Below are positions 1 through 12,402 of a stretch of DNA of 12,402 nt, piece after piece. A program made the translations under genes and the position numbers. This DNA comes from Treponema sp. GTDB taxonomy: Bacteria; Spirochaetota; Spirochaetia; Treponematales; Breznakiellaceae. The stretch is taken from positions 1 through 12,402 of the forward strand of contig JAIRRF010000133.1 in the NCBI GenBank assembly GCA_031256115.1, given 5' to 3'. Every line of letters starts with the position of its first letter. Position 1 is the stretch's first letter. The notes under the pieces are model-generated. The model did no database searches and was not told where the DNA came from. It was given only the letters and a program-made list of their open reading frames with translations.

Positions 1-773
1 GCTGGAAGAGTTTGCTGGTTGTTGGGGTTCAATGATTCCAAAGACAGACGGTCCGCATCCTGCTCGGCGTCTTTTTTATTCTTTCCGGTGCAGGGGCAGT
101 AGCTTGTCCCATTTATGGTAACTTCCATCCAAAAAAGCCGTTCATGTTCAGGGCCTGTACGTTTAACCATTTTATATTCAGGATATGTTTTAAACAGCTT
201 TTGGCATAATTCCTGAAGTTCCGATTTATGATCCAGACTTATCCGTTTTTCCAATACTTTGTCGATTTCCAAATTGATCCTGGGAACAACAAAATCCTCC
301 GCTGTTTTATAACCGGAATCCAGAAAAAGAGCGCCTATCAGGGCTTCCAATGCGTCGGCAAGGATTGTTTTTTTATTTCTGCCGCCGGTTTGCTCTTCCC
401 CCTTTCCCAGGATTAGGATCCTGTCCAGGCCAAGTTCCATGGCAATGCCGGAAAGGATATCCTCGGAAACTATCACACTTTTTATTTTAGCCAGATCTCC
501 TTCACTTTTTTCAGGAAAACGGCGGTACAGGAGAGAGGCACTCATCATCCCCAGAACGGCATCTCCTAAGAATTCGAGCCGTTCATTGTTAGCCCAATCT
601 TTTCCGCTGCGTCCTGCCTGATCTATATACTTAACCGGTGAAAACTCGTTTACAATCGAACGATGGGTTACTGAAAGGTTCAAAAGCGTTAAGCTTTTGA
701 ACCTTAATTCTGCGGATTTACAAAACAAACGGAGTTCCCGTTTCCTCTCCCCCCAAAGAGCCGGTGAATTCAA
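1..773 (-). CDS. rnc: Ribonuclease III (3' end beyond the window)
   Basis: Endonuclease that cuts double-stranded RNA, acting in rRNA and mRNA processing in the cytoplasm. The translation has the RNase III signature NERLEFLGDAVL at about residues 63-74 (E64, E67 and D71 match E. coli E38, E41 and D45) and the second acidic pair in ILADALEALIG (D140, E143). A double-stranded RNA-binding domain follows at about residues 181-248. At least 257 codons are present and no stop is reached, so only the last few residues should be missing. The chosen start is a TTG at 773-771, one base after the acpP stop; it gives the expected N-terminal helix before THRS (residues 36-39). There is no clear Shine-Dalgarno, so translation is probably coupled to acpP. 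A later TTG at 728 is the alternative. Last gene of rpmF-acpP-rnc. Identity is secure; the start is less so. Confidence 0.95.
   Translation of the reverse strand, partial: MNSPALWGERKRELRLFCKSAELRFKSLTLLNLSVTHRSIVNEFSPVKYIDQAGRSGKDWANNERLEFLGDAVLGMMSASLLYRRFPEKSEGDLAKIKSVIVSEDILSGIAMELGLDRILILGKGEEQTGGRNKKTILADALEALIGALFLDSGYKTAEDFVVPRINLEIDKVLEKRISLDHKSELQELCQKLFKTYPEYKMVKRTGPEHERLFWMEVTINGTSYCPCTGKNKKDAEQDADRLSLESLNPNNQQTLP
675..705 (-). other. Perfect 13-bp inverted repeat inside the 5' part of rnc
   Basis: The arm AAGGTTCAAAAGC at 675-687 is exactly complementary to GCTTTTGAACCTT at 693-705, with a 5-base loop (688-692). In the rnc mRNA it would fold into a 13-bp helix about 70 bases after the TTG start, covering codons for residues 24-33 (RFKSLTLLNL). 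No U-tract follows on either strand, so it does not look like a terminator. It could be coincidence in a conserved coding stretch, or a self-cleavage site for RNase III autoregulation (inference). Confidence 0.6.
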
Positions 774-774
774 T

Positions 775-1011
775 TTATTTTTGCTGGGATTTTATAAATT
801 CATAGGCATCCTTGACGGTCTCAAATTCATTGGCCTTTTCATCAGGAATAGAAATACCCATTTCTTCTTCAATGGCATAAACCAATTCGTAAGTGTCAAG
901 ACTGTCGGCACCCAGATCCTGCCGGAAAGATGCTTCCATGGTAATCTTTTCTGCGTCGACTTCAAGTTTATCGGCAATTAATTTTTTCATCTTTTCAAAT
1001 AGTTCGTCCAT
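775..1011 (-). CDS. acpP: Acyl carrier protein
   Basis: Small acidic carrier that holds growing fatty-acyl chains on a phosphopantetheine arm during type II fatty acid synthesis in the cytoplasm. The 78-residue product has the usual length and the attachment motif GADSLDTYEL; Ser37 is the predicted phosphopantetheine site. Helices II and III (YAIEEEMGISIPDEKANEF) fit the family. The ATG at 1011 has a good Shine-Dalgarno, AAGGAG, at 1018-1023. It lies between rpmF and rnc, an arrangement common near fatty-acid genes, although plsX, fabD and fabG are absent here. Tyr41 replaces the Val often seen after DSLDT. It probably shares the rpmF promoter. Confidence 0.97.
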   Translation of the reverse strand: MDELFEKMKKLIADKLEVDAEKITMEASFRQDLGADSLDTYELVYAIEEEMGISIPDEKANEFETVKDAYEFIKSQQK

Positions 1012-1045
1012 TCCGTACTCCTTAAAATGTTAAGTTCGGAACCGG

Positions 1046-1234
1046 CTAGCCTTTGGCTTCCGGTACCAATACCTGCTTACCACGGTAAAAACCGCATTTT
1101 GAGCAGGCTCTGTGCAATAATACCTTATTGCCGCAGCCGGAACATTCAACCATCACAGGAGTGGATAGTTTCATGTTAATTGTCTGACGACGGCTTGTCC
1201 TCGCTTTTGATGTTTTAGCTCTAGGTACTGCCAT
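1046..1234 (-). CDS. rpmF: 50S ribosomal protein L32
   Basis: Structural protein of the large ribosomal subunit. The 62-residue product starts MAVPRAKTSKARTSRR, the typical basic L32 N-terminus, and carries a four-cysteine zinc ribbon (C31, C34, C44, C47). The frame stays open upstream to 1297, but the start at 1234 is chosen because MAVP is the family N-terminus and AAAGGA lies just before it. The upstream extension would also cross the promoter. It is the first gene of rpmF-acpP-rnc, 34 bases ahead of acpP. Confidence 0.96.
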   Translation of the reverse strand: MAVPRAKTSKARTSRRQTINMKLSTPVMVECSGCGNKVLLHRACSKCGFYRGKQVLVPEAKG

Positions 1235-1248
1235 ATTTTTTCCTTTCC

Positions 1249-1263
1249 ACCGGTTTAACCGGT
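1249..1263. promoter_or_regulatory. 15-bp palindrome at the rpmF transcription start
   Basis: The sequence ACCGGTTTAACCGGT is a perfect dyad of 7-bp arms around one central base. It lies just downstream of the -10 element and overlaps the predicted transcription start of the rpmF promoter. The position fits a repressor operator, but no regulator is identified. A third ACCGG occurs at 1281-1285 in the -35/-10 spacer. A small RNA hairpin at the 5' end of the transcript is the alternative. Confidence 0.4.
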
Positions 1264-1268
1264 ATTTT

Positions 1269-1297
1269 AATCTAACAAAAACCGGATATAATGTCAA
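1269..1297 (-). promoter_or_regulatory. Sigma-70-type promoter for rpmF-acpP-rnc
   Basis: On the minus strand there is a perfect -35 TTGACA (1297-1292), a 17-base spacer and a -10 TAGATT (1274-1269, four of six consensus bases). The predicted start near 1262 gives a leader of roughly 28 bases to the rpmF ATG. It lies within a few bases of the coaD stop, so the ribosomal/fatty-acid cluster can be expressed independently of coaD. Confidence 0.7.
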
Positions 1298-1301
1298 TCA
1301 T

Positions 1302-1778
1302 TTACAAATGCCCTAACTTCTTTTTTAACGCCATTTCTACCACCGGGGGAACCATGGCGGAAACATCCCCTCCAAAAGAGATTAGTTCTTTTATTGTTGA
1401 GGATCGGATTGCCAGGTATTCGGGATTCGTCGTTAAAAAAAGAGTTTCGATATCCGGATTTAAGGACTTATTCATTAAAGAGAGCTCATATTCATAGGAA
1501 AAATCCCCCCCCCGGACCCCTCTAAGTAAAAGATTTATGCCTTTTTTTTTAAGAAAATCAGCAATTAATCCCCTGCAAAGGGCGGTTGATACGTTTTTCC
1601 ATGGACATACCAGGGTTGACAACAGTTCCACACGTTCTTCGGTTGAAAAAAGGTACTTTTTTTGCCGGTTTTCAGCAATTATCACGGTAACATTATCAAA
1701 AATAGCAGCAGAGCGTTTTATCACATCCAAATGCCCCAGGGTCGGCGGGTCAAAAGAACCAGGAAAAGCGGCATGCAT
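1302..1778 (-). CDS. coaD: Phosphopantetheine adenylyltransferase
   Basis: Transfers AMP from ATP to 4'-phosphopantetheine to make dephospho-CoA, the penultimate step of coenzyme A synthesis. Its pathway product supplies the arm later attached to the neighbouring AcpP. The nucleotidyltransferase motif is GSFDPPTLGH (residues 7-16, T/HxGH type), with substrate-binding arginines in LLRGVRGGDF (R87, R90) and the second ATP motif IRSSTIKEL (residues 124-132). From the ATG at 1778 the product is 158 residues, the family's usual length. A TTG extension to 1814 would add 12 residues not expected before MHAAFPGSFDP. The Shine-Dalgarno is weak. The gene holds a G9 run and an A9 run on its coding strand. 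It is divergent from the HEAT-repeat gene. Confidence 0.95.
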   Translation of the reverse strand: MHAAFPGSFDPPTLGHLDVIKRSAAIFDNVTVIIAENRQKKYLFSTEERVELLSTLVCPWKNVSTALCRGLIADFLKKKGINLLLRGVRGGDFSYEYELSLMNKSLNPDIETLFLTTNPEYLAIRSSTIKELISFGGDVSAMVPPVVEMALKKKLGHL

Positions 1779-1890
1779 ACAACCCAGCTTATTCTCATAC
1801 TGCCAGGCGGTCAAGATGTGGCATCCATGCCAATCCGGTTTGTAACATACATGACTTGATCTTACAATTATCTAAAGAATAATAATAAAT

Positions 1891-2589
1891 ATGAGCCGGT
1901 TTTTATTAACAGTATTCATCATATGCATTCCGGTTATTCCGGTAATTAGTCAGTCAACCGAAATGACCGTAGAAGAGTCCTATCTTCAGGAATCGATAGA
2001 AAACATGATTATCCGCGAGCAAAGCCGGGCAGACAGCAGGGATATAAAAATTGCAGCCCTTGTTAATATTGGCTCGGCCATGGAACGCGGCAACAAAAGC
2101 GAAGAGATCCGCCAGGCATTGGAATATATGGGATTGGAAGGAACCGTATACAGGATCCTGAATAACGGCAGGCTTATTAATAATTTTCCGGATGTACGCC
2201 GGGAATGTGCCAAATATTTGGGGATCCTGGGCACCGCGGCAGCCAAGGATGTTCTGTTAAAGATTGCCGCCAACGACAATGAACCCTTAGTTATCCAGGA
2301 GGCAATAAAATCTCTGGGGGATATTGGTATCGACGACAATGGAAGAACTATCAATACTATTGGCAGAATTGTCCAGAAATTTCAAAATATTAATCCCGAT
2401 AATCTCCTTGCATTTTCCGCAATAGTTACGATTGAAAAGCTGGGACTACAGTTTGGTCTAAATAATCAGGAAATAATCCAGATATTATTGCAGATTCACG
2501 AAGGCCCCTATCTTAATGTGGTTAAGAACAGGGCAAGACTGGCAATGGATAAAATACAAAATGCACGGAAGGAACAGCAGCGCAGATAA
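1891..2589 (+). CDS. Exported HEAT-repeat protein of unknown function
   Basis: A 232-residue protein with an N-terminal signal peptide (SRF, then a long hydrophobic stretch to about residue 20, ending VISQS). I see no lipobox cysteine, so it is probably periplasmic. The middle (about residues 100-160) has helical repeats of HEAT type: VRRECAKYLGILG, then AAKDVLLKIAANDNEPLVIQ, then EAIKSLGDIG. Such repeats form protein-binding solenoids, so a scaffold or adaptor role is plausible but not shown. The last residues are highly basic (ARKEQQRR). Its start has only a weak AAAGAA-type ribosome site. It is divergent from coaD and convergent with the glycosyltransferase, 9 bases away with no terminator hairpin between. 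The function is unknown. Confidence 0.8.
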   Translation: MSRFLLTVFIICIPVIPVISQSTEMTVEESYLQESIENMIIREQSRADSRDIKIAALVNIGSAMERGNKSEEIRQALEYMGLEGTVYRILNNGRLINNFPDVRRECAKYLGILGTAAAKDVLLKIAANDNEPLVIQEAIKSLGDIGIDDNGRTINTIGRIVQKFQNINPDNLLAFSAIVTIEKLGLQFGLNNQEIIQILLQIHEGPYLNVVKNRARLAMDKIQNARKEQQRR

Positions 2590-2598
2590 AAGAAAAAC

Positions 2599-3714
2599 CT
2601 ACATTTCCCTGAACAACGAGAATGTTTTTGCAGCACAGTCTTCCCATGAAAAAGCTTTGGTCCGTTCCAGTCCCTTTTGGCGGAGTTCTCTGGCCAAGTC
2701 CCTGTCGGTAAGGCTTACCATCCGATCCGCCATTTCCTCCGCATCGGCGGGATCAAAATACAACGCCGCGTGTTCTGCGGCTTCCGGAAGAGAAGCCGCC
2801 CGGGCGCAAGCCACAGGGACTCCCGCAGCCATTGCTTCCAGCACTCCCAGACCGAAACCTTCGTAACTGGAAGGAAAAACCACAAAATCAGCCCCCGCAT
2901 AGAGTTCCGGCAGACTGGTAGAAGGGAAATGTCCGGTAAAATAGATTTCGTTCCGGAATTTGGAGGCGGAAGCGGCAAATTTAACCATTTCTGCATTTTT
3001 ACTGTCCGCTCCGGCCAGAACCAGCCTATGCGGATACCGGGTCCGTATTTTAAAAATGCCAAAAGCTTCAATAAGTTTGATATGGTTTTTAACCGGATAA
3101 TCAATTCTGGATGCATAAAGAATGTAGGGACGCCGGAAACTAAAAGGCTGGATTAACACGAGGCTTTCTTCGTTTCTTGGCCGGGGATAAAACTTACTAT
3201 GATCCACCCCGTTGGGGATTACCGTAACTTTTGATTCTTTTACATTTACCAGATCGATTAGTTCCTGTTTTACAAATTCGCTGACAGCAATAATCTTGTC
3301 CAAATGCCGCAGAGAATCGGGAAGGATCATCCGTATTAAACCCAGGGATTCCCGGGTTTTCCGGGTACCCCAATAAGCGGCCATGTCATGAACCGTACCA
3401 ATTGAAGGGCAAGGAGAACTATAGGGAAGGTCCCGGTGGGCCGCAGGAAAAAAACAGGCCTTATACTCTCTGGAAACGGCAAATTCCGGATACCGAAGCA
3501 GGTGCCAGAGAGTACTGGCGGTCCTGCCGTTAAAACGGCACCGGGAAACAAAATCGCATTGTACAGCCGTTTCGGCATAGACATAGCGATCAAAATCCCA
3601 ACCAAAAAGCTCAAACTGATCCCCTGGAGGGATCCGTTTGAGCAATTCCAGCAAATAAACACCTAGTCCGGATCGGCCCCCGGCTGAAGCAAAGGTGTCT
3701 ACGCCGATTTTCAT
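2599..3714 (-). CDS. GT4-type (GT-B fold) glycosyltransferase
   Basis: Probable retaining glycosyltransferase that moves a sugar from a nucleotide-sugar to a cell-envelope acceptor; the substrate cannot be told from sequence. The 371-residue product starts MKIGVDTFASAGGRSGLGVYL, a glycine-rich N-terminal acceptor-domain loop. It has the inter-domain VIPNGVDHSKFYP (residues 165-177), and ILYASRIDYPVKNH opens the donor domain. The C-terminal nucleotide-sugar motif EGFGLGVLE (E285 and E293, the EX7E signature) is followed by AMAAGVPV. There is no signal peptide or membrane segment, so it is cytoplasmic or peripheral. A GTG extension to 3798 is possible but adds a basic-hydrophobic stretch unlike the family and runs into the nrdR promoter. 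A TATACT on the minus strand at 3727-3722 would start transcription almost at the ATG; this is weak evidence. Confidence 0.9.
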   Translation of the reverse strand: MKIGVDTFASAGGRSGLGVYLLELLKRIPPGDQFELFGWDFDRYVYAETAVQCDFVSRCRFNGRTASTLWHLLRYPEFAVSREYKACFFPAAHRDLPYSSPCPSIGTVHDMAAYWGTRKTRESLGLIRMILPDSLRHLDKIIAVSEFVKQELIDLVNVKESKVTVIPNGVDHSKFYPRPRNEESLVLIQPFSFRRPYILYASRIDYPVKNHIKLIEAFGIFKIRTRYPHRLVLAGADSKNAEMVKFAASASKFRNEIYFTGHFPSTSLPELYAGADFVVFPSSYEGFGLGVLEAMAAGVPVACARAASLPEAAEHAALYFDPADAEEMADRMVSLTDRDLARELRQKGLERTKAFSWEDCAAKTFSLFREM

Positions 3715-3789
3715 GCTCAAAAGTATAACCGTTTTTTTTGGAAAAAACCATACTTTCGAAAAAAAGAGTGAAATTTTGCCGATAAATAC

Positions 3790-3818
3790 TTGAAACACAA
3801 AATATAGCGTGTTATACT
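3790..3818 (+). promoter_or_regulatory. Promoter of the nrdR-nrdD operon
   Basis: TTGAAA at 3790-3795 (-35), a 17-base spacer and TATACT at 3813-3818 (-10) make a good vegetative promoter. The predicted start near 3825 leaves about 90 bases of leader before nrdR. A perfect TATAAT also occurs at 3829-3834 but has no matching -35. The spacer of the main promoter is filled by an NrdR-box-like site, the placement expected for direct repression. Confidence 0.7.
3795..3810 (+). promoter_or_regulatory. NrdR box 1 (candidate operator)
   Basis: ACACAAAATATAGCGT matches the published NrdR-box pattern acaCwAtATaTwGtgt at 14 of 16 positions. It fills the spacer between the -35 and -10 elements, so a bound NrdR would block RNA polymerase. 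The gene immediately downstream is nrdR itself, supporting autoregulated control of the reductase operon. Confidence 0.65.
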
Positions 3819-3837
3819 AGGAATGAGCTATAATACT

Positions 3838-3853
3838 ACGCTATATATGTGGG
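3838..3853 (+). promoter_or_regulatory. NrdR box 2 (weaker candidate operator)
   Basis: ACGCTATATATGTGGG matches the left half and AT-rich core of the NrdR box, with mismatches in the right half. Read on the other strand it shares ATATAGCGT with box 1. The two sites start 43 bases apart, close to four helical turns, as expected for paired NrdR sites on the same DNA face. It lies just downstream of the predicted transcription start. Confidence 0.45.
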
Positions 3854-3914
3854 TCTACGGGTGGGGTCAAGCTGTCCATGCCGGTAGCGTGCCATTTAAA
3901 GGGTTGGTTTTCTA

Positions 3915-4379
3915 ATGCGCTGCCCCCATTGCGGTAACTTTGACGACAAGGTAATAGAATCCCGGACCCTGGCCAACGGTGAAGCGATCCGACGAAGGCG
4001 GGAGTGCAACGGTTGCGGTTACCGATTTACCAGTTATGAACGGACAGAAGACAAGCAGTTTATGGTTGTTAAACGGGACGGACGCCGGGAACCCTTTGAC
4101 CGGCTTAAAATAGAGAAAGGTGTATACAGGGCTCTGGAAAAACGCCCCTTTTCTTCAATGCAAATAGAAAGCCTGGTAAACGATATTGAAGACAGGGCTG
4201 AAATTCTTGGCCGGTCCAGCCATGAAATAAGTTCCAGGGACTTGGGAGAACTGGTATTGAAAAAAATCGGGGAACTGGACAGGGTTGCCTATATCCGTTT
4301 TGCATCGGTCTACAGACATTTTGAAAATCCTGAAGAATTTATCCGGGAAATTCAAAAACTGGGAACGGAGGAAAAATGA
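3915..4379 (+). CDS. nrdR: Transcriptional repressor NrdR
   Basis: Nucleotide-sensing repressor of ribonucleotide reductase genes. The 154-residue product has the N-terminal zinc ribbon (C3, C6, C31, C34 in MRCPHCG and CNGCGYRFTSYER) that contacts DNA. An ATP-cone domain (about residues 48-138) follows, whose ATP/dATP occupancy sets repression. Length and motifs are those of the family. The start at 3915 is fixed by the MRCPHCG N-terminus; AAAGGG lies about 12 bases upstream. Its stop overlaps the nrdD start (ATGA), so the two are translationally coupled. Box-like sites in its own promoter point to autoregulation together with the reductase it precedes. Confidence 0.97.
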   Translation: MRCPHCGNFDDKVIESRTLANGEAIRRRRECNGCGYRFTSYERTEDKQFMVVKRDGRREPFDRLKIEKGVYRALEKRPFSSMQIESLVNDIEDRAEILGRSSHEISSRDLGELVLKKIGELDRVAYIRFASVYRHFENPEEFIREIQKLGTEEK

Positions 4380-6418
4380 TTCGCAGTGTAGTAAAACGTT
4401 CCGGGGAAATTGAGGTTTATAATAAACGAAAAATCCGGAACGCCATATCCAGGGCTTTTACTGCTGTTTGGAGCAAAGAAAATAACGATGTCAAAATTGA
4501 CGCACTGGCTGACAGGGTTGAAGAACTGATCCAGGCCATGATGAATGACCGGCACCGCAATTCAATCCCGGCCATAGAGGAAATCCAGGATCTGGTGGAA
4601 ACCGCTCTTATTGAAAAACGGGAAACCGCCGTAGCCAAGGCTTATATCCTCTACCGAGCGCGGCACGAGGCCATGCGGGATGCAAAAGCTTTAATGCTGG
4701 ACATTGATTCCACCATGGACGGCTATTTAAAGCAATCCGACTGGCGGGTTAATGAAAATGCCAATGTAAACTATTCCCTGGGAGGATTAATACTCCACAA
4801 TTCGGGAAGCATCACCGCCAATTATTGGCTAAAAAACATTTATCCTCCGGAAATTGCCGCTGCCCACCGGAATGCCGATTTCCACATCCACGACCTGTCG
4901 ATGTTTTCCGGTTATTGTGCCGGCTGGTCATTAAGGCAATTAATCAGCGAAGGATTGGGAGGAGTCCCGGACAAAATAACCAGCAAGCCTGCCAAACACC
5001 TTTCTACCCTGATGCAGCAGGCAGTAAATTTTCTTGGCTGTCTGCAGAACGAATGGGCCGGCGCCCAGGCATTTTCGTCATTTGATACATTTACCGCCCC
5101 TTTTGTAAAAAAGGATAATCTTTCTGACAGGGAAATTAAACAATGCCTGCAAAGTTTTATTTTTGGGGTTAATACGCCCAGCCGCTGGGGCTGCCCGGCG
5201 CCCTTTACCAATATTACCCTGGATTGGACCTGTCCAGTTGACCTAAAAGACCGTAAAGCCGTGGTAGACGGAAAAGAAGCGGATTTTTGCTACGGCGACT
5301 GTAAAAAAGAAATGGACCGGATAAACCGTATTTTTATTGAATTAATGATTGAAGGAGACGCCGCCGGCAGGGGTTTTCAATACCCTATACCCACCTACAA
5401 TATTACTCCGGACTTTGACTGGGAAAGTCCCAACGCCGCCTTTCTTTTTGAAATGACAAGCCGTTACGGTACACCGTATTTCCAGAACTTTATTAATTCC
5501 GATTTGAATCCGGAAGATGTACGATCCATGTGCTGCCGACTTCAACTGGACAAGCGGGAACTTCGCAAACGGGGGGGCGGCCTCTTTGGTTCCGACGAAC
5601 TTACCGGTTCTATTGGGGTAATAACTATTAACCTTCCCCGGCTGGGTTATCTGGCAAAAAACAAGGATAATTTTTTCTTTCGTCTGGAAAGCCTGATGAT
5701 TTTAGCCAAAGAAAGTTTAAAAATTAAACGGAAGGTTGTTACAAAACTTCTGGAAACCGGACTATTTCCCTATACCCGCCGTTATCTGCGTAATCTTGAC
5801 AGTCATTTTAACACAATCGGTCTTGTGGGAATGAACGAGTGTATTCTCAATTTTCTGGGAAGAAACATTACCATTGCCGATGAGGAAGGGCAAAATTTTG
5901 CCCTGTCGGTACTGGACTTTATGCGGAAAAAACTTGCAGATTTCCAGGAAGAAACAGGTGAGTTATTTAACCTGGAAGCTACTCCGGCGGAATCCACTTC
6001 CTACCGTTTGGCAAAACACGATAAGCAGCGTTATCCGGACATTATCAGCTCCGGAACAAACGAACCATATTATACCAATTCAACCCAGCTTCCGGTAATG
6101 CAGACCGAAGATATCTTTGACGCTCTGGATCTCCAGGAAAAACTACAATGCGCCTATACGGGGGGCACAGTGTTCCATACCCTTGTAGGAGAGGCCATAG
6201 AAGACTGGCGGATCTGCCGGGATCTGGTAAAAGCCATAGCCTGCAATTACAGGGTTCCCTACTTTACCATTTCTCCTACATTTTCCGTCTGTACTGTTCA
6301 CGGTTATTTAAAAGGGGAACATTTTTTTTGCCCCCTTTGCAGAGAAGAAGAAAAGGAACATCTGTCCAGCCGTATTGCCCTTTTGGAAGAAGAACGGGAG
6401 GAAGTCTTAACTTGTTAG
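4376..6418 (+). CDS. nrdD: Class III ribonucleotide reductase, catalytic body lacking the glycyl-radical domain
   Basis: Anaerobic ribonucleoside-triphosphate reductase, which makes deoxynucleotides by glycyl-radical chemistry. The 680-residue protein has an N-terminal ATP cone (about 1-100, allosteric) and then the ten-stranded barrel with NADFHIHDL (167-173), GYCAGWSL (C181), and MCCRLQLDKREL (C386/C387, the probable thiyl-radical region). The TISPTFSVCTVHGYLKGEH block leads into a C-terminal metal knot (C639, H642, C652, C655). Intact family members continue through a linker into a radical domain of the form EVYSRxVGYYRxVxNWNxGK. Here the protein stops (TAG, 6416-6418) 25 residues after the knot, and that domain is encoded by the next gene. 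The body shows no frameshift or decay. ATGA overlap with nrdR. Family identity is certain; how the split enzyme assembles is inference. Confidence 0.95.
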   Translation: MIRSVVKRSGEIEVYNKRKIRNAISRAFTAVWSKENNDVKIDALADRVEELIQAMMNDRHRNSIPAIEEIQDLVETALIEKRETAVAKAYILYRARHEAMRDAKALMLDIDSTMDGYLKQSDWRVNENANVNYSLGGLILHNSGSITANYWLKNIYPPEIAAAHRNADFHIHDLSMFSGYCAGWSLRQLISEGLGGVPDKITSKPAKHLSTLMQQAVNFLGCLQNEWAGAQAFSSFDTFTAPFVKKDNLSDREIKQCLQSFIFGVNTPSRWGCPAPFTNITLDWTCPVDLKDRKAVVDGKEADFCYGDCKKEMDRINRIFIELMIEGDAAGRGFQYPIPTYNITPDFDWESPNAAFLFEMTSRYGTPYFQNFINSDLNPEDVRSMCCRLQLDKRELRKRGGGLFGSDELTGSIGVITINLPRLGYLAKNKDNFFFRLESLMILAKESLKIKRKVVTKLLETGLFPYTRRYLRNLDSHFNTIGLVGMNECILNFLGRNITIADEEGQNFALSVLDFMRKKLADFQEETGELFNLEATPAESTSYRLAKHDKQRYPDIISSGTNEPYYTNSTQLPVMQTEDIFDALDLQEKLQCAYTGGTVFHTLVGEAIEDWRICRDLVKAIACNYRVPYFTISPTFSVCTVHGYLKGEHFFCPLCREEEKEHLSSRIALLEEEREEVLTC

Positions 6419-6430
6419 CAAACGAAACAA

Positions 6431-6436
6431 AAAGGA
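6431..6436 (+). promoter_or_regulatory. Ribosome binding site for the split-off radical-domain gene
   Basis: AAAGGA sits six bases before the ATG at 6443, at normal spacing. It lies inside the 24-base gap after the nrdD stop. The downstream gene is in the same frame as nrdD, so this site, together with the stops TAG (6416) and TAA (6437), supports separate initiation rather than readthrough. Confidence 0.75.
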
Positions 6437-6442
6437 TAAAAT

Positions 6443-6961
6443 ATGAGAAACCTTGAGGCAATCGAAACTGAACTTGCAGCGGCAAGGGAAGCTATCTCCG
6501 GCGTGAAGGGGACGCCGGCGGAAGTGTATAGCCGTATCGTGGGTTATTACCGGTCGGTACGGAACTGGAACAGAGGTAAGCGGGAAGAATACGGCCAGCG
6601 GGTAATGTTTCAACCGGATGCATCCCTGCTGGCCTCCTGCACCCCTATGGTACAGGAAGAAACGACAGAAAAAACTATTACGGAAGATGATTCACAATAT
6701 GCCGGAACAGAACTGAGGATCCTCCTCTTTATTCGTCCTGCCTGCCCTGCCTGCCCTTCGGCAAAAACTGCGGCGGGCAAGCTTGGCATCCCCATGGAAC
6801 TCTACGATGCAGATACCAATGAAGGACTGGCTGAGGCAGTACGGCGCCAGGTAATGTCAACACCTACGGCAATCCTCCTGTCTTCCAACGGAAAAGAGGT
6901 AGGCCGTGCGAGGGATCCGGACGCCATAGAACGGTTATTGGATGTTACCGAAGCTGTGTAA
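6443..6961 (+). CDS. Separate NrdD glycyl-radical domain fused to a CPAC redoxin
   Basis: A 172-residue protein with two recognisable parts. Residues 25-53 (AEVYSRIVGYYRSVRNWNRG and onward to YGQR) are the C-terminal glycyl-radical loop of class III ribonucleotide reductases; Gly34 is the candidate radical residue. After an acidic, Thr-rich linker (about 66-88) comes a thioredoxin/glutaredoxin-like fold. Its strand is LRILLFIRP, its active site C101-P-A-C104, and its cis-proline loop STPTAILL (P141). I infer that it supplies the radical glycine to the preceding truncated NrdD and may also reduce that enzyme's active-site disulfide. The closest known analogy is GrcA/YfiD, the stand-alone radical domain for pyruvate formate-lyase. 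It has its own AAAGGA ribosome site and overlaps the permease start by 20 bases. The alternative is a relic of a broken nrdD, which the intact motifs argue against. Confidence 0.85.
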   Translation: MRNLEAIETELAAAREAISGVKGTPAEVYSRIVGYYRSVRNWNRGKREEYGQRVMFQPDASLLASCTPMVQEETTEKTITEDDSQYAGTELRILLFIRPACPACPSAKTAAGKLGIPMELYDADTNEGLAEAVRRQVMSTPTAILLSSNGKEVGRARDPDAIERLLDVTEAV

Positions 6962-7709
6962 AGAATGGATGCTACATATAGCTTTGCCCTTAATCATCAT
7001 TGTAATTTGGGTAATCCTTTCTTCCCTGGACCTTCTTAATCCCTACCTGGTCCCTTCTCCGGCACGGGTTTGGAACGCGGCGCTGGGTCTTATTGTTTCC
7101 GGCGATCTTTTGGGACATATCGCCGTCAGCCTGGTAAGGGTTTGGGGGGGCTATGCCTTAAGCGTTTGCTGCGCCCTTCCCCTGGCTCTTCTTTTCCATG
7201 AAAGTCCCGTATTGCGTCGGATCTTTCACGGGCTTTTTGAAATGATCCGGGCCGTACCGCCCCTGGCGATGATTCCCCTGCTTATTTTATGGTTCGGTCT
7301 GGGCGAAGGGTCCAAGCTGGCGGTGATTCTGCTGGCTTCGTTCTTTCCCGTTTTTCTTAATGCCCAAAGCGGTTTTGACACCATGGACAGCAACTGGCTG
7401 GAATTATCCCGTTCCCTGGAATTATCCTTTCCCCGGCATCTTTTTTCGGTGCTGATACCCGCTTCGCTCCCCCAGATTATTACGGGGCTGCGGCTGGGTT
7501 TTGGTTATGCCTGGCGGGCATTGCTGGGTGCGGAACTTTTTGCCGCCGCATCGGGGCTGGGTTATCTTATTACCGATTCCCAGGCTATGGCCCGGATAGA
7601 CCGGGTCTTTGTGGGGATCATCAGCATCGGTATCCTGGGGGCTTTTTTCGACGCGCTGCTCCGGTTTCTGGCCCGGAGGCTTGTCGGACACAATCAGGTG
7701 GCGGTGTGA
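6942..7709 (+). CDS. ABC transporter permease, SsuC/TauC/NitT type
   Basis: Membrane subunit of an importer of the sulfonate/nitrate/taurine/pyrimidine-precursor family. The 255-residue protein has about six hydrophobic segments, beginning LPLIIIVIWVILSSL (about 15-29). It carries the family's cytoplasmic coupling loop, ELSRSLELSFPRHLFSVLIP, leading to SLPQIITGLRLGFGYAWRAL, then GAELFAAASGLGYLI. VRVWGGYALSV and EMIRAVPPLAMIPLLILWFG are also typical. The start at 6942 overlaps the previous gene by 20 bases; an ATG at 6969 is an alternative, and neither has a strong ribosome site. It pairs with the ATPase gene (GTGA overlap). No solute-binding protein is visible, so the substrate is unknown. 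Confidence 0.9.
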   Translation: MLPKLCKEWMLHIALPLIIIVIWVILSSLDLLNPYLVPSPARVWNAALGLIVSGDLLGHIAVSLVRVWGGYALSVCCALPLALLFHESPVLRRIFHGLFEMIRAVPPLAMIPLLILWFGLGEGSKLAVILLASFFPVFLNAQSGFDTMDSNWLELSRSLELSFPRHLFSVLIPASLPQIITGLRLGFGYAWRALLGAELFAAASGLGYLITDSQAMARIDRVFVGIISIGILGAFFDALLRFLARRLVGHNQVAV

Positions 7710-8455
7710 AAATCGATGTCCGTTCACTTTTCAAGAGTTACTCCGGCCCCGATGGAGAAACGATCCATGCCCTCCGCGATTGCAGCCTAGAGATAGAAAA
7801 CGGCAATTACACGGCTGTTGTAGGCCGGAGCGGATGCGGAAAAACAACGCTGCTTAAACTGATAGCGGGACTGGAAAAACCGGATTCAGGCAGCACAGAG
7901 TTTTTTGCGGAAAACTCTTCAGGATTTCCGGGTATTCCAAAAATGGGTTTTATGTTTCAGGATCCCCGGCTTCTTCCCTGGCTTACGGTAGAACAAAACC
8001 TTGCCCTGGCTTTTCCCTATCCCCGGAGCAAAACAGAAAAGAAGTCGGTTCAAAATGAAATACAGCGGGTTCTTGCCATGACCGGCCTGGAGGATCGGGC
8101 CGCTTCCCTGCCCCGGGAACTTTCGGGGGGCATGGCCCAGCGCGCTGCCCTGGCCCGGTGTCTTTGCAGAAAGCCCAATATTCTTTTATTGGACGAACCT
8201 TTATGCAGCCTGGATGCTTTTACCCGGCTCAGGCTCCGGGAAGAACTGGAAAGATTATGGCGGCAGCTTAAACTTACCGTTATCCTTGTTACCCATGATA
8301 TAGAAGAGGCGGTTTTTTTCGGTGACAAAGTTTTTTTAATGAACCAGGGAAAGCTGGATGAAGAAGTGCCTATCCCCCTTTCCCGGCCCAGGGATTATCG
8401 CGGCGCGGAATTTCAGGAACTCTGCCGCAAAATAGAAGATCTTTTATTATGTTAA
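7706..8455 (+). CDS. ABC transporter ATP-binding protein, SsuB/TauB type
   Basis: Nucleotide-binding subunit that powers the preceding permease. The 249-residue product has Walker A GRSGCGKTT (40-48), a Q-loop at Q85 in GFMFQDPRLLPW, the ABC signature LSGGMAQRAALAR (139-151), Walker B ILLLDEP (159-165) and the switch histidine H197 in VTHDIEEA. The RLLPW after the Q-loop is typical of the nitrate/sulfonate subfamily. It starts with GTG overlapping the permease stop, with AGGTGG just upstream, and ends overlapping the hydE start by 7 bases. The substrate cannot be assigned. Confidence 0.93.
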   Translation: MKIDVRSLFKSYSGPDGETIHALRDCSLEIENGNYTAVVGRSGCGKTTLLKLIAGLEKPDSGSTEFFAENSSGFPGIPKMGFMFQDPRLLPWLTVEQNLALAFPYPRSKTEKKSVQNEIQRVLAMTGLEDRAASLPRELSGGMAQRAALARCLCRKPNILLLDEPLCSLDAFTRLRLREELERLWRQLKLTVILVTHDIEEAVFFGDKVFLMNQGKLDEEVPIPLSRPRDYRGAEFQELCRKIEDLLLC

Positions 8456-9450
8456 GCGATAAAGAGCTGCTGCATTTTATTAGCACTGAAAACAGGGAAG
8501 AAACTGAAGGACTTTTTAAATCGGCACAAAAAGTCCGGGAAGAACATTTCGGCAAGACTGTGTATTTCCGGGGTTTAATAGAATTTACCAACTACTGTAA
8601 AAACGATTGTTACTACTGTGGAATCAGACGAAGCAATACCCGGTTAAAGCGTTACCGCCTGAGCCGGGAACAAATCCTGGAATGCTGCCGGAACGGGAAA
8701 CGTTTGGGGCTCCGTACCTTTGTGCTGCAAGGGGGGGAAGATTCCTGGTTCACCGATGAAAGGCTCTGTAAAATAGTTCGTGCCGTCCGTGCCGAATTTC
8801 CCGATCACGCGATTACCCTTTCCATAGGGGAACGCAGCCGGAAAAGTTACGAAGCCCTGTTTAAGGCCGGGGTAAACCGCTACCTATTAAGGCACGAGAG
8901 CGCTGATGATAAACATTACCGGGCCATGCATCCCCCGGAGATGAAACTACCTGCCAGAAAAGAATGTCTTTTTGCCCTGAAAGAAATTGGTTTCGAGACC
9001 GGGGCGGGATTTATGACCGGTTCCCCTTTCCAAACGCCGCAATCTCTTTTGGCGGATCTCCGGTTTCTGGCGGAACTGGAACCCCGGATGGTTGGCATAG
9101 GACCTTTTATTCCCGCCGCAAATACTCCCTTTGAAAATCATCCCCCGGGAGACGCCGGTTTAACCCTCCGGATACTAGCCCTCACCCGGCTGCTCCTTCC
9201 CCGGGTCCTGCTGCCTGCGACTACCGCCCTGGGTACCCTTACAAAGGACGGCAGAGAACAGGCCCTGGCAGCGGGGGCCAATGTGCTTATGCCAAACCTT
9301 ACACCCCAAAATGTCCGTAAACTTTATTCCATCTACGACAATAAAATCAGCAATAACGATGCCGCAGAGTCTGTCAGATATTTGGTCAAAAAAATCAAAG
9401 AGTTGGGCTATATTCCGGATTGCCTGGATCCAGCCGACTTTATAGCTTAA
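8449..9450 (+). CDS. hydE: [FeFe]-hydrogenase H-cluster maturation radical SAM enzyme
   Basis: Radical S-adenosylmethionine enzyme that, with HydF and HydG, builds the diiron subcluster of [FeFe] hydrogenases. The 333-residue protein has the CX3CX2C cluster motif at C50, C54 and C57 (in EFTNYCKNDCYYCGIRRSN), followed by the family's LKRYRLSREQI. Further HydE-like blocks are LQGGED, LRHESAD, IGPFIPAANTPF, TALGTLTKDGREQALAAGA and MPNLTPQNVRKLYSIYDNK. Extra C-terminal cluster cysteines found in some HydE are not seen, and they are not universal. It overlaps the ATPase gene by 7 bases, so it belongs to the nrdR operon. No hydrogenase, hydF or hydG is nearby. The related BioB/PylB group is less likely because of the RYR and TALGTL blocks. 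Confidence 0.9.
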   Translation: MLSDKELLHFISTENREETEGLFKSAQKVREEHFGKTVYFRGLIEFTNYCKNDCYYCGIRRSNTRLKRYRLSREQILECCRNGKRLGLRTFVLQGGEDSWFTDERLCKIVRAVRAEFPDHAITLSIGERSRKSYEALFKAGVNRYLLRHESADDKHYRAMHPPEMKLPARKECLFALKEIGFETGAGFMTGSPFQTPQSLLADLRFLAELEPRMVGIGPFIPAANTPFENHPPGDAGLTLRILALTRLLLPRVLLPATTALGTLTKDGREQALAAGANVLMPNLTPQNVRKLYSIYDNKISNNDAAESVRYLVKKIKELGYIPDCLDPADFIA

Positions 9451-10592
9451 TCTTTTCTGATTATTTCTGTAGCTTCGGGGAATGCATCTGCATTATACCT
9501 GGTGATTCTGGGCACCACGGCAGTTCTGAGCCCCTGGCACCATTCGAATGCCCTGGTTCCGATGAATTGAACATCATCGGATATGGCTATGCTTAGAAGA
9601 TTGATGCTGCCGGAAAATGCAAAATCTCCGATTTGTTTTACCCCATCGGGAATCGTATAGACTATCGCTTGTTTGCCCGCAGGGTATTCGATAAGAACAG
9701 TCATGTATTTATCAAACAAGACCCCGTCAATAGAGGAAAAAATGGGATTTCCCGGATCTACAGTAATTTCCCTGAGTCCGGTACACCTGCCAAAGACGCC
9801 TAATCCAATAGAGGTAATATTTGCGGGAATATGTACCCTTAAAAGATTTTCGCAGGCATAAAACGCTTCATCTTCAATGGTTCTAACGGTATTGGGGATA
9901 ATAATGCTGCCAAGCGCACTGCAATTTAAAAAAGCGTGAAGTTTAATAACTGTAACACCGGCAGGTATGTTCACGCTTGTAAGGTTTCGGCACCAGGCAA
10001 AGGTTCCGTTTTCTATTAAAGTAATACCGGAAGGTATTGTTACCTCTTTCAGGCTGGTACATCCGAAAAATGCCCTGCTTCCGATAGACCTAAGACCGGC
10101 GGGAAGGGAAACTTTTGTAAGGCTGCCGCACTCATAAAATGTACGGGCCCCAATGGAGGTAACGCCGAAAGGAATATCTATGGAGGCAAGGCTCTTACAT
10201 TCAAAAAACGCACCGTTACCGATAGAAGTTACTCTTGGGGGAATAATTATATCTGTAAGTCTTTCACAGCCGCTGAATGCATAGTCTCCGATCTCGGTTA
10301 AACTCGAAGGCAGGACAACCCTGGAAAGTTCATAACAATTAAAAAATGAACTCCGTATTTTCCTTACCCCTTCCGGAATAACAACAACCCTTACCTGTTC
10401 ATTAAAGACTTCATCCCCTATTTCGGTTATTCCCAGGGACGCCGGGATATTTACGCTCCTGTCTGTGCCCCGGTATTCAACCAAAACAGTACCTTCCAGG
10501 ATAAAATCCGAAGAATTGACAGAAGATGTCTGCCCCCAGAGCGGAAACATAAGGAAAAAAAGCAGTGTTCCTAAAACCATGTTTTTATTCAT
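9447..10592 (-). CDS. Exported BspA/TpLRR-type leucine-rich-repeat protein
   Basis: A 381-residue protein with a signal peptide (NKNMVLGTLLFFLMFPLWG, cleavage near residue 20) and no lipobox, so secreted or outer-surface. Residues about 48-375 are LRR_5 repeats of the form IPxxVTSIGxxAFxxCxxLxxV. Successive conserved prolines fall at residues 95, 118, 141, 164, 187, 210, 233 and 256, an exact 23-residue period. A break at about 280-314 (DPGNPIFSSIDGVLFDK) is a known insertion type in this family. Such proteins in oral spirochaetes and Bacteroidetes bind host or partner cells; that role is inferred here. AGGGAG lies six bases before the ATG. It ends tail-to-tail with hydE, their stop codons overlapping. 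Confidence 0.9.
   Translation of the reverse strand: MNKNMVLGTLLFFLMFPLWGQTSSVNSSDFILEGTVLVEYRGTDRSVNIPASLGITEIGDEVFNEQVRVVVIPEGVRKIRSSFFNCYELSRVVLPSSLTEIGDYAFSGCERLTDIIIPPRVTSIGNGAFFECKSLASIDIPFGVTSIGARTFYECGSLTKVSLPAGLRSIGSRAFFGCTSLKEVTIPSGITLIENGTFAWCRNLTSVNIPAGVTVIKLHAFLNCSALGSIIIPNTVRTIEDEAFYACENLLRVHIPANITSIGLGVFGRCTGLREITVDPGNPIFSSIDGVLFDKYMTVLIEYPAGKQAIVYTIPDGVKQIGDFAFSGSINLLSIAISDDVQFIGTRAFEWCQGLRTAVVPRITRYNADAFPEATEIIRKD
9468..10451 (-). repeat. Tandem LRR_5 coding repeat, 69-base period
   Basis: The codons for residues about 48-375 of the LRR protein repeat every 69 bases (23 residues), with conserved I-P, IG, AF, C and L positions. The units are divergent at the DNA level but regular in protein. 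Regularity breaks only near residues 280-314, after which at least two further units return in register. Confidence 0.8.
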
Positions 10593-10652
10593 TTTAGCTC
10601 CCTGAATATAACACTTTAACGGATAAAAGATTACGGATCAAGCTAAGGTTAT

Positions 10653-11654
10653 TTACTTGACAGCGAATTTGAAGCCAATGCTGATTTGTATTATTGTCCG
10701 GCTATAGCGGTATGTTCTGTTGTCTGATCCCGCGGTAATAGTAGAATCGCCGATGTCCAGGGCAAACCGGGGGTCCACAAACAATACACCCTGCCAGGTT
10801 TTTACACCGTATTGAAAGCCCCCCAGGACGGAAAACAGGGGAGGTCTGACGGTGCCCAATAACGAAATGTTGATATTTACACCCCCGTAGGGCTCCAACA
10901 TAAAATTACCGGAAGGTTTTAAGACAAGTTTTACCAACAGGGGTATTGCCGCTATATAATCCCTGAATTCGCCGTTGGCACCGTATGAAAGTCTAACCCA
11001 GTCGGAGGCTATTTCCGCACCCGCTTCAAGGGACATATTATTTAAAAAATGCACCTCTGCGGAAATACCGGCCCCATAATTTGCAAAATAGGTTGATTGC
11101 TCCCTGCTGTTGTAAATTCTGGGAGTCCAGAATGCGTATGCGGCCGCATACAGGAACCTGTCGCGCCAGTTGTCGTCAGGCAGGGTCTGAGCGGCGGCAG
11201 CCGGGGAAAGGATATAAACCGGAGCAGGCCCCTCAACCACAGGGTGTTCCAAAATGGGAAGAGGTATAAGAGAAACCAGCCTGAACAGCATGACGGCAAA
11301 AAATTCATCAATATCCGACATGGATTCATAGTCCATTTCCTGCTCTACCAGGATTTCTGCAATATTGTTATCCCGGACCTGGAGTCTTACCGAGTATTTA
11401 TCGGTCGAGACCAAATCGGGGTGGTAAATTCTGCCAATTACAGAATAACGGGCCTCCCCTTCCGAATTCGTTACCGAATAATTCCAGGACGAAAGCTCCA
11501 TTACAATTACTTTGGTAATATAGGCGTTATCCTCCGGCTGAATGCCGCCGCCTGTCACGGAAGGAACATATATGCTTATATCATGGTAGCTTTGGCTAAA
11601 AAGGGGGAAACCAAGACCAATCAACAATACAAGAATCTTTACGGACCGGCCCAC
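10653..11654 (-). CDS. Probable outer-membrane beta-barrel protein
   Basis: A 333-residue protein with a signal peptide (SVKILVLLIGLGFPLFSQS, cleavage near residue 20). Residues about 22-118 form a mixed domain (YVPSVTGGGIQPEDN, then MELSSWNYSVTNSEGEARYSVIGRI) that I do not recognise. A Pro/Ala-rich linker follows (about 120-150, with PAAAAQ). Residues about 155-333 alternate polar and hydrophobic positions in amphipathic strands (AGISAEVHFLNNMSLEAGAEI, MLEPYGGVNINISLLG). The protein ends IQISIGFKFAVK, a barrel-like last strand. The GTG start at 11654 overlaps the preceding lipoprotein gene by 16 bases, so the pair is coupled. A surface or envelope role is inferred; no specific function can be named. 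Confidence 0.7.
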   Translation of the reverse strand: MGRSVKILVLLIGLGFPLFSQSYHDISIYVPSVTGGGIQPEDNAYITKVIVMELSSWNYSVTNSEGEARYSVIGRIYHPDLVSTDKYSVRLQVRDNNIAEILVEQEMDYESMSDIDEFFAVMLFRLVSLIPLPILEHPVVEGPAPVYILSPAAAAQTLPDDNWRDRFLYAAAYAFWTPRIYNSREQSTYFANYGAGISAEVHFLNNMSLEAGAEIASDWVRLSYGANGEFRDYIAAIPLLVKLVLKPSGNFMLEPYGGVNINISLLGTVRPPLFSVLGGFQYGVKTWQGVLFVDPRFALDIGDSTITAGSDNRTYRYSRTIIQISIGFKFAVK

Positions 11655-12058
11655 TCAATTGTTATCCCGTTCCCGTCATCGCCGCCGCCGCCCAGACCAA
11701 AAGGATTCGTCACCTCCACCGAATAATGGTCGGACAGGCCGCCGTAGCTTACGTCAATAATGTGTCTCCCAATTTTAGAAAAAATAAAACCATTTTTGGA
11801 GACGGGTTTACGATCATTACCGGGATCCTCTACGCTGATCTCAACCTGGTCAATGGGGATCTGTTCCAGCCCTCCCCTGTAGTTGATAAAAACCTTTAAA
11901 TCGTAGTCCCTGTTAAACATATTGTTTATCGAATATGCCATCCTGTTCGGCATGGCTACAAGGCCGTCTCCTTCGGCCGAACCAAGGGAGCCTATGGGGG
12001 GAGAGCAGCCTAAAAAGCACAGGCTGAGAAACAAGAGTAGTACAAACCCGCATTTCAT
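11639..12058 (-). CDS. Putative lipoprotein with Ig-like stretch
   Basis: A 139-residue protein with a lipoprotein signal: KCGFVLLLFLSLCFLGCS, with Cys18 as the predicted lipidated residue (FLGC, acceptable for the loose spirochaetal lipobox). After a Gly/Ser/Ala linker, residues about 55-120 resemble a bacterial Ig-like beta domain (IPIDQVEISV, then FIFSKIGRHIIDVSYGGLSDHYSVEV). The C-terminus is Gly/Asp-rich (GLGGGGDDGNG). A strong AAGGGGGA lies before the ATG. It overlaps the downstream barrel gene by 16 bases and lies 27 bases after the partial gene, so the three probably form one operon. The function is unknown; surface anchoring is inferred. Confidence 0.75.
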   Translation of the reverse strand: MKCGFVLLLFLSLCFLGCSPPIGSLGSAEGDGLVAMPNRMAYSINNMFNRDYDLKVFINYRGGLEQIPIDQVEISVEDPGNDRKPVSKNGFIFSKIGRHIIDVSYGGLSDHYSVEVTNPFGLGGGGDDGNGITIEWAGP

Positions 12059-12085
12059 GCCACCGTCCCCCTTAACAAGAATTGG

Positions 12086-12402
12086 TTAAGGCCCTGAAAC
12101 AATAATATTCATGGCGGTAACTCCAATCCCCAGGATAATCGCCCCGCCCGTTGAGGGCAGTACCACCGAAGGTGCTGTCGTACCCTTTCCTCCGTCAGGG
12201 GCCAAATTGTTCAGCCCGCCCCGGATATACCAGGTAAGACCATTGGCGCCAGTATCTATCGCTATAACCGGGATGTTAACAAGAAGTCTGCACAAGCCGC
12301 CTCCGGAGCTTCCGACGTCGGGGGTTTCCATTGTTATTATTATCTTTTCGATACCGGCAGTACCGTCGGCAGCATATGCAGCCGAAGTCAATGTTACCAA
12401 CT
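12086..12402 (-). CDS. Unknown protein, C-terminal part only
   Basis: An open frame enters from the right edge and ends at a TAA (12088-12086). About 105 residues are visible, beginning VTLTSAAYAADG. The sequence is Gly-, Thr- and Ile-rich (TMETPDVGSSGGG, then NLAPDGGKGTTAPSVVLP) and ends in a short hydrophobic stretch (AIILGIGVTAMNIIVSGP). I do not recognise a family. The real start lies beyond the window, although a TTG at 12400 cannot be excluded. Its position 27 bases before the lipoprotein gene suggests a shared operon of envelope proteins. Confidence 0.5.
   Translation of the reverse strand, partial: LVTLTSAAYAADGTAGIEKIIITMETPDVGSSGGGLCRLLVNIPVIAIDTGANGLTWYIRGGLNNLAPDGGKGTTAPSVVLPSTGGAIILGIGVTAMNIIVSGP

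Follow-up and report, generated by a model that had tools for sequence, protein, structure and literature searches.

The window analysed here, i.e. the whole stretch of 12,402 nt from Treponema sp. (GCA_031256115.1, contig JAIRRF010000133.1, positions 1-12,402, forward strand), very probably encodes a class III ribonucleotide reductase of two polypeptides: a catalytic subunit, NrdD, which ends before the glycyl-radical loop, and a small separate glycyl-radical domain protein that carries this loop, here named GRD (gene grd). The gene order on the plus strand is nrdR, nrdD, grd (Table 1). An earlier note on this DNA had proposed such a two-polypeptide enzyme, and relatives, unlinked genes and genomes with only the split form support it as the best reading. 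We observe two separate, conserved and constrained genes; nrdG-like genes adjoin GRD, both operons have NrdR-box-like sites where the two are unlinked, and some genomes have no other detected reductase. Many spirochaetes seem to make their anaerobic reductase from two gene products, one the catalytic body, the other a small, detachable piece bearing the radical.

NrdD lacks the radical loop and the following gene carries it

NrdD (680 aa) matched the Pfam family NRDD (PF13597) with 570.1 bits, and the match covered positions 1-539 of the 562 in the profile, with the end part absent. Its barrel is that of the NRDD family (PRK08270, 1068.6 bits against 548). The finger-loop cysteine, to which section 9 of PMC9669993 ascribes the thiyl-radical role, and the zinc knuckle (MCCR and CxxH...CxxC, respectively) are both present and are invariant in alignment A3, which was used solely for NrdD columns and tails and in which the loop of one locus (L151) is misplaced. 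The radical loop is not on the C-terminus of the catalytic polypeptide; it is encoded by a separate gene. As the earlier note had said, NrdD stops 25 residues past the knuckle motif CPLC without a radical loop, which is borne out by the sequence and by the Pfam profile match, and the radical motif lies in the following gene, where the end of the NRDD profile (533-562) matches residues 26-56. The two stop codons between the parts (TAG, 6416-6418; TAA, 6437-6439), the AAAGGA and the ATG at 6443 were likewise found in place, and both frames were as described.

In most of the fused forms examined (i.e. NrdD with its own radical loop), the loop lies ∼5 residues past the zinc knuckle. Long-type split NrdDs (n = 78) continue for 22-38 residues past the knuckle (median 27) with a conserved charged pattern; this charged C-tail is common to them, and fused forms have the radical loop at that place. 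The NrdD of one genome, G312, has just 15 residues past the knuckle. Both the extra NrdD C-tail and the GRD leader are absent from the fused forms examined.

GRD is composed of a 27-residue leader, the loop, a poorly conserved linker and a glutaredoxin-like domain with CPAC at residues 101-104, the last of which had gone unmentioned in the earlier note. By homology, Gly34 within VYSRIVGYYR is the radical glycine. In the Pfam scan the C-terminal part matched a glutaredoxin-family domain with CxxC (PF00462, 27.0 bits, cut-off 22.9), and it gave weak redoxin matches among solved structures. The scan (E up to 1) returned five families, including PF13597 and PF00462, and no match to PF01228, which we take to be the accession of the pyruvate formate-lyase-type glycyl-radical domain; as no match of this type was obtained, membership of GRD in GrcA was rejected. 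At one other locus (L009/L049 in G009) a TAA parts GRD from its redoxin domain and leaves separate open frames, which is either an error or a further break. At two more (L177 in G077 and L181 in G067) a variant GRD (VGFYRPTKLW) lies directly 5' of a radical-SAM gene whose product starts with FGPVxSRRLGxSLGIDL..., unlike the NrdG2-like ones, and which perhaps encodes another activase.

The split is conserved among relatives

Of the nearest named loci, the search kept 80; 76 of these were split with an adjacent radical gene, one was fused (L151), two lay at a contig edge and one (Treponema putidum) had no radical gene in the stretch nearby. This sharing of the split is far beyond chance, and the picture that the earlier note had regarded as fatal to its proposal, fused close relatives and stops unique to this copy, was not seen. 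A sequencing error is also untenable, since independent genomes share the split and nine of them have the two genes far apart (see below). The observation in the earlier note that the two frames are in register holds for the window but is uninformative: frames 0/1/2 occur at 24/30/22 in 76 relatives, so that the in-register relation in the window is due to chance.

An NRDD match was present in 42 of 58 genomes (the window's own included), of which 37 had the catalytic part and a separate radical part, three were fused, one (G010) had the catalytic part only, at a contig end, and one (G008) the radical part only. The gap between nrdD and grd ranged from -14 to 384 nt in the 59 relatives that were scored for starts. 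In comparison with four genus mates (L075-L078), dN/dS was 0.06-0.07 for NrdD and 0.07-0.12 for GRD residues 1-62; for the GRD linker (20-26 codons) it was 0.5-1.2. At G203:C10:44392-46883 an NRDD match to positions 1-530 lies beside a 58-aa radical frame, with a second GRD match on contig 25, and this is possibly a further split in another NrdD type.

Unlinked genes, the NrdG activase and NrdR-box-like sites

In nine Treponema-like genomes of two genera (G036, G039, G149, G187, G191 and G312; G257, G269 and G325), nrdD and grd lie at least 95 kb apart on the same contig. The best NrdG2 match was found at most 400 bp from the GRD match in all nine; seven of these matches exceed the curated cut-off, and those of G269 and G325 fall short of it. 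Thus, where the operon is broken, it is the presumed activase that GRD sits beside. Among 14 linked relatives that do not belong to the window's genus, an NrdG2 match adjoined GRD in 13 (some of the matches being below cut-off) and was on another contig in G026. An NrdG-type activase above cut-off was detected, often beside GRD, in 22 of the 30 genomes searched; this set, like those of 60 genomes (NRDD layout) and 20 genomes (multiple NRDD matches), was picked as split-looking, interesting or having at least three matches, and the counts are not frequencies.

For five of the nine unlinked genomes, the 250 bases preceding GRD were scored for NrdR-box-like sites against what we take to be the NrdR-box consensus, with shuffles that keep base content only. 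The best box reached 16/16 in three genomes, 15/16 in one and 13/16 in one, and the first four of these scores were equalled by none of 300 shuffles. The nrdR or nrdD promoters scored 15-16 in four of these unlinked genomes, 15 in the window and 14 in G031 and G032, and the GRDs inside linked operons (n = 5) scored 9-12. None of 200 single-base shuffles of the 250 bases upstream reached the score of the box pair in the window. When partner-box spacers of 14-17 and 24-27 were tried, the best partner lay at 25-27 in nine of 12 promoters and at 14 in three; PMC12051234 gives pairs at 15-16 or 25-26 bp.

Genomes in which the split pair is the only detected reductase

We drew 294 genomes of the phylum, requested at completeness of at least 90%, and found NRDD in 184 and the class I/II domain PF02867 in 202 of them. 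Thirty-three genomes (at least 90% complete) had a split NrdD, no fused NrdD and no PF02867 match. When these were inspected frame by frame, a catalytic open reading frame without the loop was present in 33/33 and a separate GRD frame was seen in 32; the GRD of G058 was found by profile match and missed by the sequence pattern. Unless deoxynucleosides are taken up, these organisms rely on the split pair for an essential function. As for the window, the earlier note had named a second complete nrdD elsewhere in the genome as evidence that would count against it. No such gene was found in the source assembly, where there is one NRDD locus; this assembly is fragmented, 72% complete and contains a class I/II fragment, so that the split NrdD may not be the only reductase of this organism.

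Fused forms and the history of the split

Fused NrdD-GRD-redoxin proteins also exist (L025, L070, L071, L158, L159 and L160; the redoxin domain of L158-L160 was confirmed by a direct domain test). We built a tree of 56 hand-picked catalytic domains (45 split, 11 fused), in which rows unlabelled by the script were assigned as split or fused by hand and the distant fused L024, L059 and L069 were left out. On this tree the split/fused label requires at least three changes. One split clade, of eight rows with short GRDs and a different knuckle end, has weak support and groups with three fused forms, and the other holds the window and the long type with the glutaredoxin-like domain (GRD-Grx), with the fused L158 and L159 as neighbours. 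Parsimony points to the split state having arisen more than once, with some re-fusion (L025, perhaps also L157, L070, L071 and L160); alternatively, one old split may have been followed by several fusions. The tree's rooting is unsettled, and the branch of L161 is long.

Additional radical domains in genomes and viruses

A profile search with short stand-alone GRDs returned 2615 protein clusters, some of which may be fragments of longer genes. Fourteen of fifteen deep-branching genomes with at least three NRDD matches have two or three stand-alone GRD matches (the exception is G074). One of the two GRDs in G177 and the third of G192 are below the Pfam cut-off on their own, G117 additionally has a second, full-length NrdD, and nrdD is incomplete in the assemblies of G169 and G189; at L178, L180, L193, L195 and L197-L201 GRD was assigned by profile match, as the narrow pattern did not show it. 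When ten neighbour genes were scanned at six extra GRD copies, phage families of named function (DNA transposition protein; ParB-like; RecE-like exonuclease; SSB and DnaC-like loader) were found at four loci and none at two.

A relative of the window's own GRD was found in 0 of 10 candidate stretches of viral contigs. Short GRDs had to serve as queries to reach the viral ones; with nine of them we obtained 564 viral stretches, 494 of which were relatives, and the best 80 of these 494 together with two phage-collection records made up a set of 82 loci (among them L207 and L208-L287). Of these, 73 carry a stand-alone GRD without a catalytic domain in the stretch (15 of them with <2.2 kb of upstream sequence, where an NrdD may have been lost), three a stand-alone GRD with NrdD nearby and six a fused form. 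The stand-alone viral GRDs are 42 to 177 aa long (median about 57 residues), and 57 of the 73 have at most 80 aa. A search of the whole records of 46 viral contigs >33 kb, which may themselves be fragments, gave no catalytic match in 44 and a match in two. The 68 stand-alone viral cores that fit the pattern keep R, G, P, W, K, E and R, residues that are largely built into the pattern. By pattern, no NrdG-like gene was found at the stand-alone viral loci and two were found at fused loci. The archaeal virus ANMV-1 has a stand-alone GRD of 144 aa, which goes under the name nrdD both in the annotation and in the paper on this virus. Five viral loci (L207, L240, L250, L261 and L278) have an additional CxxC...CxxC segment in front of the GRD.

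The earlier note had suggested that the radical part could be replaced, or its dose set separately. Several GRDs per genome and the viral stand-alone domains fit such a possible exchange or separate dosing. Extended to viruses, the idea would be that the radical loop is an autonomous, exchangeable cofactor, present several times per NrdD in some hosts, and that many viruses of bacteria and archaea encode a mini-protein of this kind, but no NrdD, to supply the host reductase with a fresh radical during infection, for and against which we see the chances as evenly balanced.

Features of the window

The features are collected in Table 1. On the 3' side of grd, the window (6942-9450) encodes an ABC permease, an ABC ATPase and a HydE-type radical-SAM maturase; it does not encode nrdG there.

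Table 1. Features of the nrdR-nrdD-grd region in the window
Feature	Position	Strand	Basis or remark
NrdR-box-like pair	3795..3853	+	15/16 and 11/16, spacer 27; upstream of nrdR-nrdD-grd; consensus as we take it to be
nrdR, repressor of ribonucleotide reductase genes	3915..4379	+	TIGR00244, 169.8 bits, cut-off 124.65; overlaps the nrdD start
nrdD, catalytic subunit, 680 aa, without radical loop	4376..6418	+	ATP cone aa 4-98; NRDD match from aa 127
Finger-loop motif MCCR, aa 385-388, including the cysteine expected to carry the thiyl radical	5528..5539	+	Sequence; invariant in A3
Zinc-knuckle residues C639, H642, C652, C655	6290..6340	+	Sequence; A3 columns invariant; zinc role by homology
25-aa charged C-tail of NrdD after the knuckle	6341..6415	+	Alignment and tail counts
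grd, stand-alone glycyl-radical domain and glutaredoxin-like domain, 172 aa	6443..6961	+	Open reading frame, Pfam scan, homologs
27-aa GRD leader before the loop	6443..6523	+	Equal length in 55/59 relatives scored
Radical loop VYSRIVGYYRSVRNWNRGKREEYGQRV	6524..6604	+	Gly34 codon at 6542-6544
Glutaredoxin/thioredoxin-like domain; CPAC at 6743-6754	6707..6958	+	PF00462, 27.0 bits

Discussion

In the model we propose, NrdD contributes its ATP cone, its zinc knuckle and a barrel that holds the finger-loop cysteine, while the radical loop comes from GRD. The radical-SAM activase NrdG would generate the glycyl radical on GRD at Gly34, and the GRD loop would insert into the NrdD barrel, as the C-terminus of a fused protein does, to form the thiyl radical. 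The NrdD C-tail and the 27-aa GRD leader probably stand in for the covalent link by holding the two proteins together, and the glutaredoxin-like domain probably re-reduces the active site. Trans activation, the docking surfaces and the nature of the reductant are what we infer from the sequences.

Could the stops be bypassed by read-through, frameshift or re-initiation, so that one long NrdD-GRD polypeptide does the work? The window frames are in register and 24 nt apart, and fused forms exist in other lineages; but a conserved bypass agrees poorly with the mixed frames of the 76 relatives and with a GRD start 27 codons ahead of the loop in 55 of 59 relatives scored (a count inflated by the start-scoring script, which favoured ATGs 18-34 codons upstream), and in the nine genomes with distant genes it is ruled out. 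We consider this explanation extremely unlikely for the window. That the gene is simply broken, or the assembly wrong, would be in keeping with the state of the source assembly, but the shared layout of 76 of the 80 nearest named loci and the strong constraint on both genes make its probability practically negligible.

GRD might also be no more than a spare, in the way that GrcA serves pyruvate formate-lyase, with a complete reductase elsewhere doing the normal work. Fused and split NrdD do occur together in Treponemataceae-like genomes (G137, G141, G145, G168 and G196), extra GRD copies exist and the window's assembly has its class I/II fragment. The catalytic partner of the split pair, however, has no radical loop of its own, so that GRD would be needed and not spare, 33 genomes have no other detected reductase, and the window's assembly has a single NRDD locus; a role as a spare part is therefore improbable. 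Two listed homologs (P0005 and P0089) bear the names thioredoxin or glutaredoxin, as might be expected if GRD-Grx were a redoxin-type protein for another enzyme and NrdD used a different radical source. This is very unlikely, given that the loop aligns to the final part of the NrdD profile, that three deep loci (L062, L065 and L066) have the loop without a redoxin domain, that grd keeps company with either nrdD or an nrdG-like gene, and that NrdR-box-like sites precede it where it is unlinked.

Besides the inflated leader count, several observations weigh against a two-polypeptide enzyme or limit its reach. dS was saturated in the more distant pairs. The window's assembly contains the end fragment of a class I/II large subunit (PF02867, G000:C155:102-362) and a class I/II match was found in 47 of the 58 genomes, so that the split NrdD may be dispensable here. 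The window's incomplete assembly gave no NrdG2 match that exceeds the cut-off (best 33 bits); two of four genus mates have a match, on a contig other than that of grd, and the other two have none. The box before the unlinked GRD of G269 is weak, being equalled by 14 of 300 shuffles, the nrdR loci L150 (11) and L129 (12) have no convincing box and L075 scores 13. Partner boxes are weak throughout (9-13 of 16), and those at spacer 14 lie outside the 25-27 of the others.

The two-polypeptide enzyme resembles canonical NrdD (T4, Escherichia coli, Thermotoga maritima) in its ATP cone, barrel, double-cysteine finger loop, zinc knuckle and loop sequence and, in relatives, in its NrdG-type activase. 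In contrast to canonical NrdD, a gene of its own encodes the loop, together with a leader and, in this lineage, a glutaredoxin-like domain, and NrdD ends in a C-tail where the loop would be. The class II reductase NrdJa/NrdJb uses no glycyl radical, and its split is not known to detach a radical-bearing domain. Like the present pair, it is one reductase of two polypeptides, in Pseudomonas aeruginosa (PMC4520616). Split phage nrdA and nrdD are also reductase genes in pieces; in most of the described cases introns, inteins or homing endonucleases interrupt them, the cause for phiAS4 nrdD being unknown, and the account in PMC3653736 mentions, as far as it goes, no split at a domain border for them. 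In GrcA/YfiD and phage T4 Y06I, as in GRD, a small stand-alone protein bears the glycyl-radical loop for a large partner, but GrcA serves pyruvate formate-lyase, itself loop-bearing, after oxygen damage (PMC8683613), whereas the NrdD of the window is itself without a loop.

In published descriptions of class III reductase, the fragile radical loop forms the C-terminal part of the catalytic chain (PMC9669993, PMC9531940). As the loop is here not on the same chain, we call the system a two-polypeptide variant of class III. In the open-access literature, which was the scope of the search, we found no description of a stand-alone NrdD radical domain as such, and priority of the observation is not established. 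The separate, sometimes unlinked loop suggests that the covalent link is dispensable. PMC8683613 raises the question of whether glycyl-radical enzymes other than pyruvate formate-lyase have detachable radical parts, and the split GRDs are candidates for this. The viral copies would be very small metabolic genes, and the split lineages offer a natural system for measuring glycyl radical formation on, and delivery by, a free domain.

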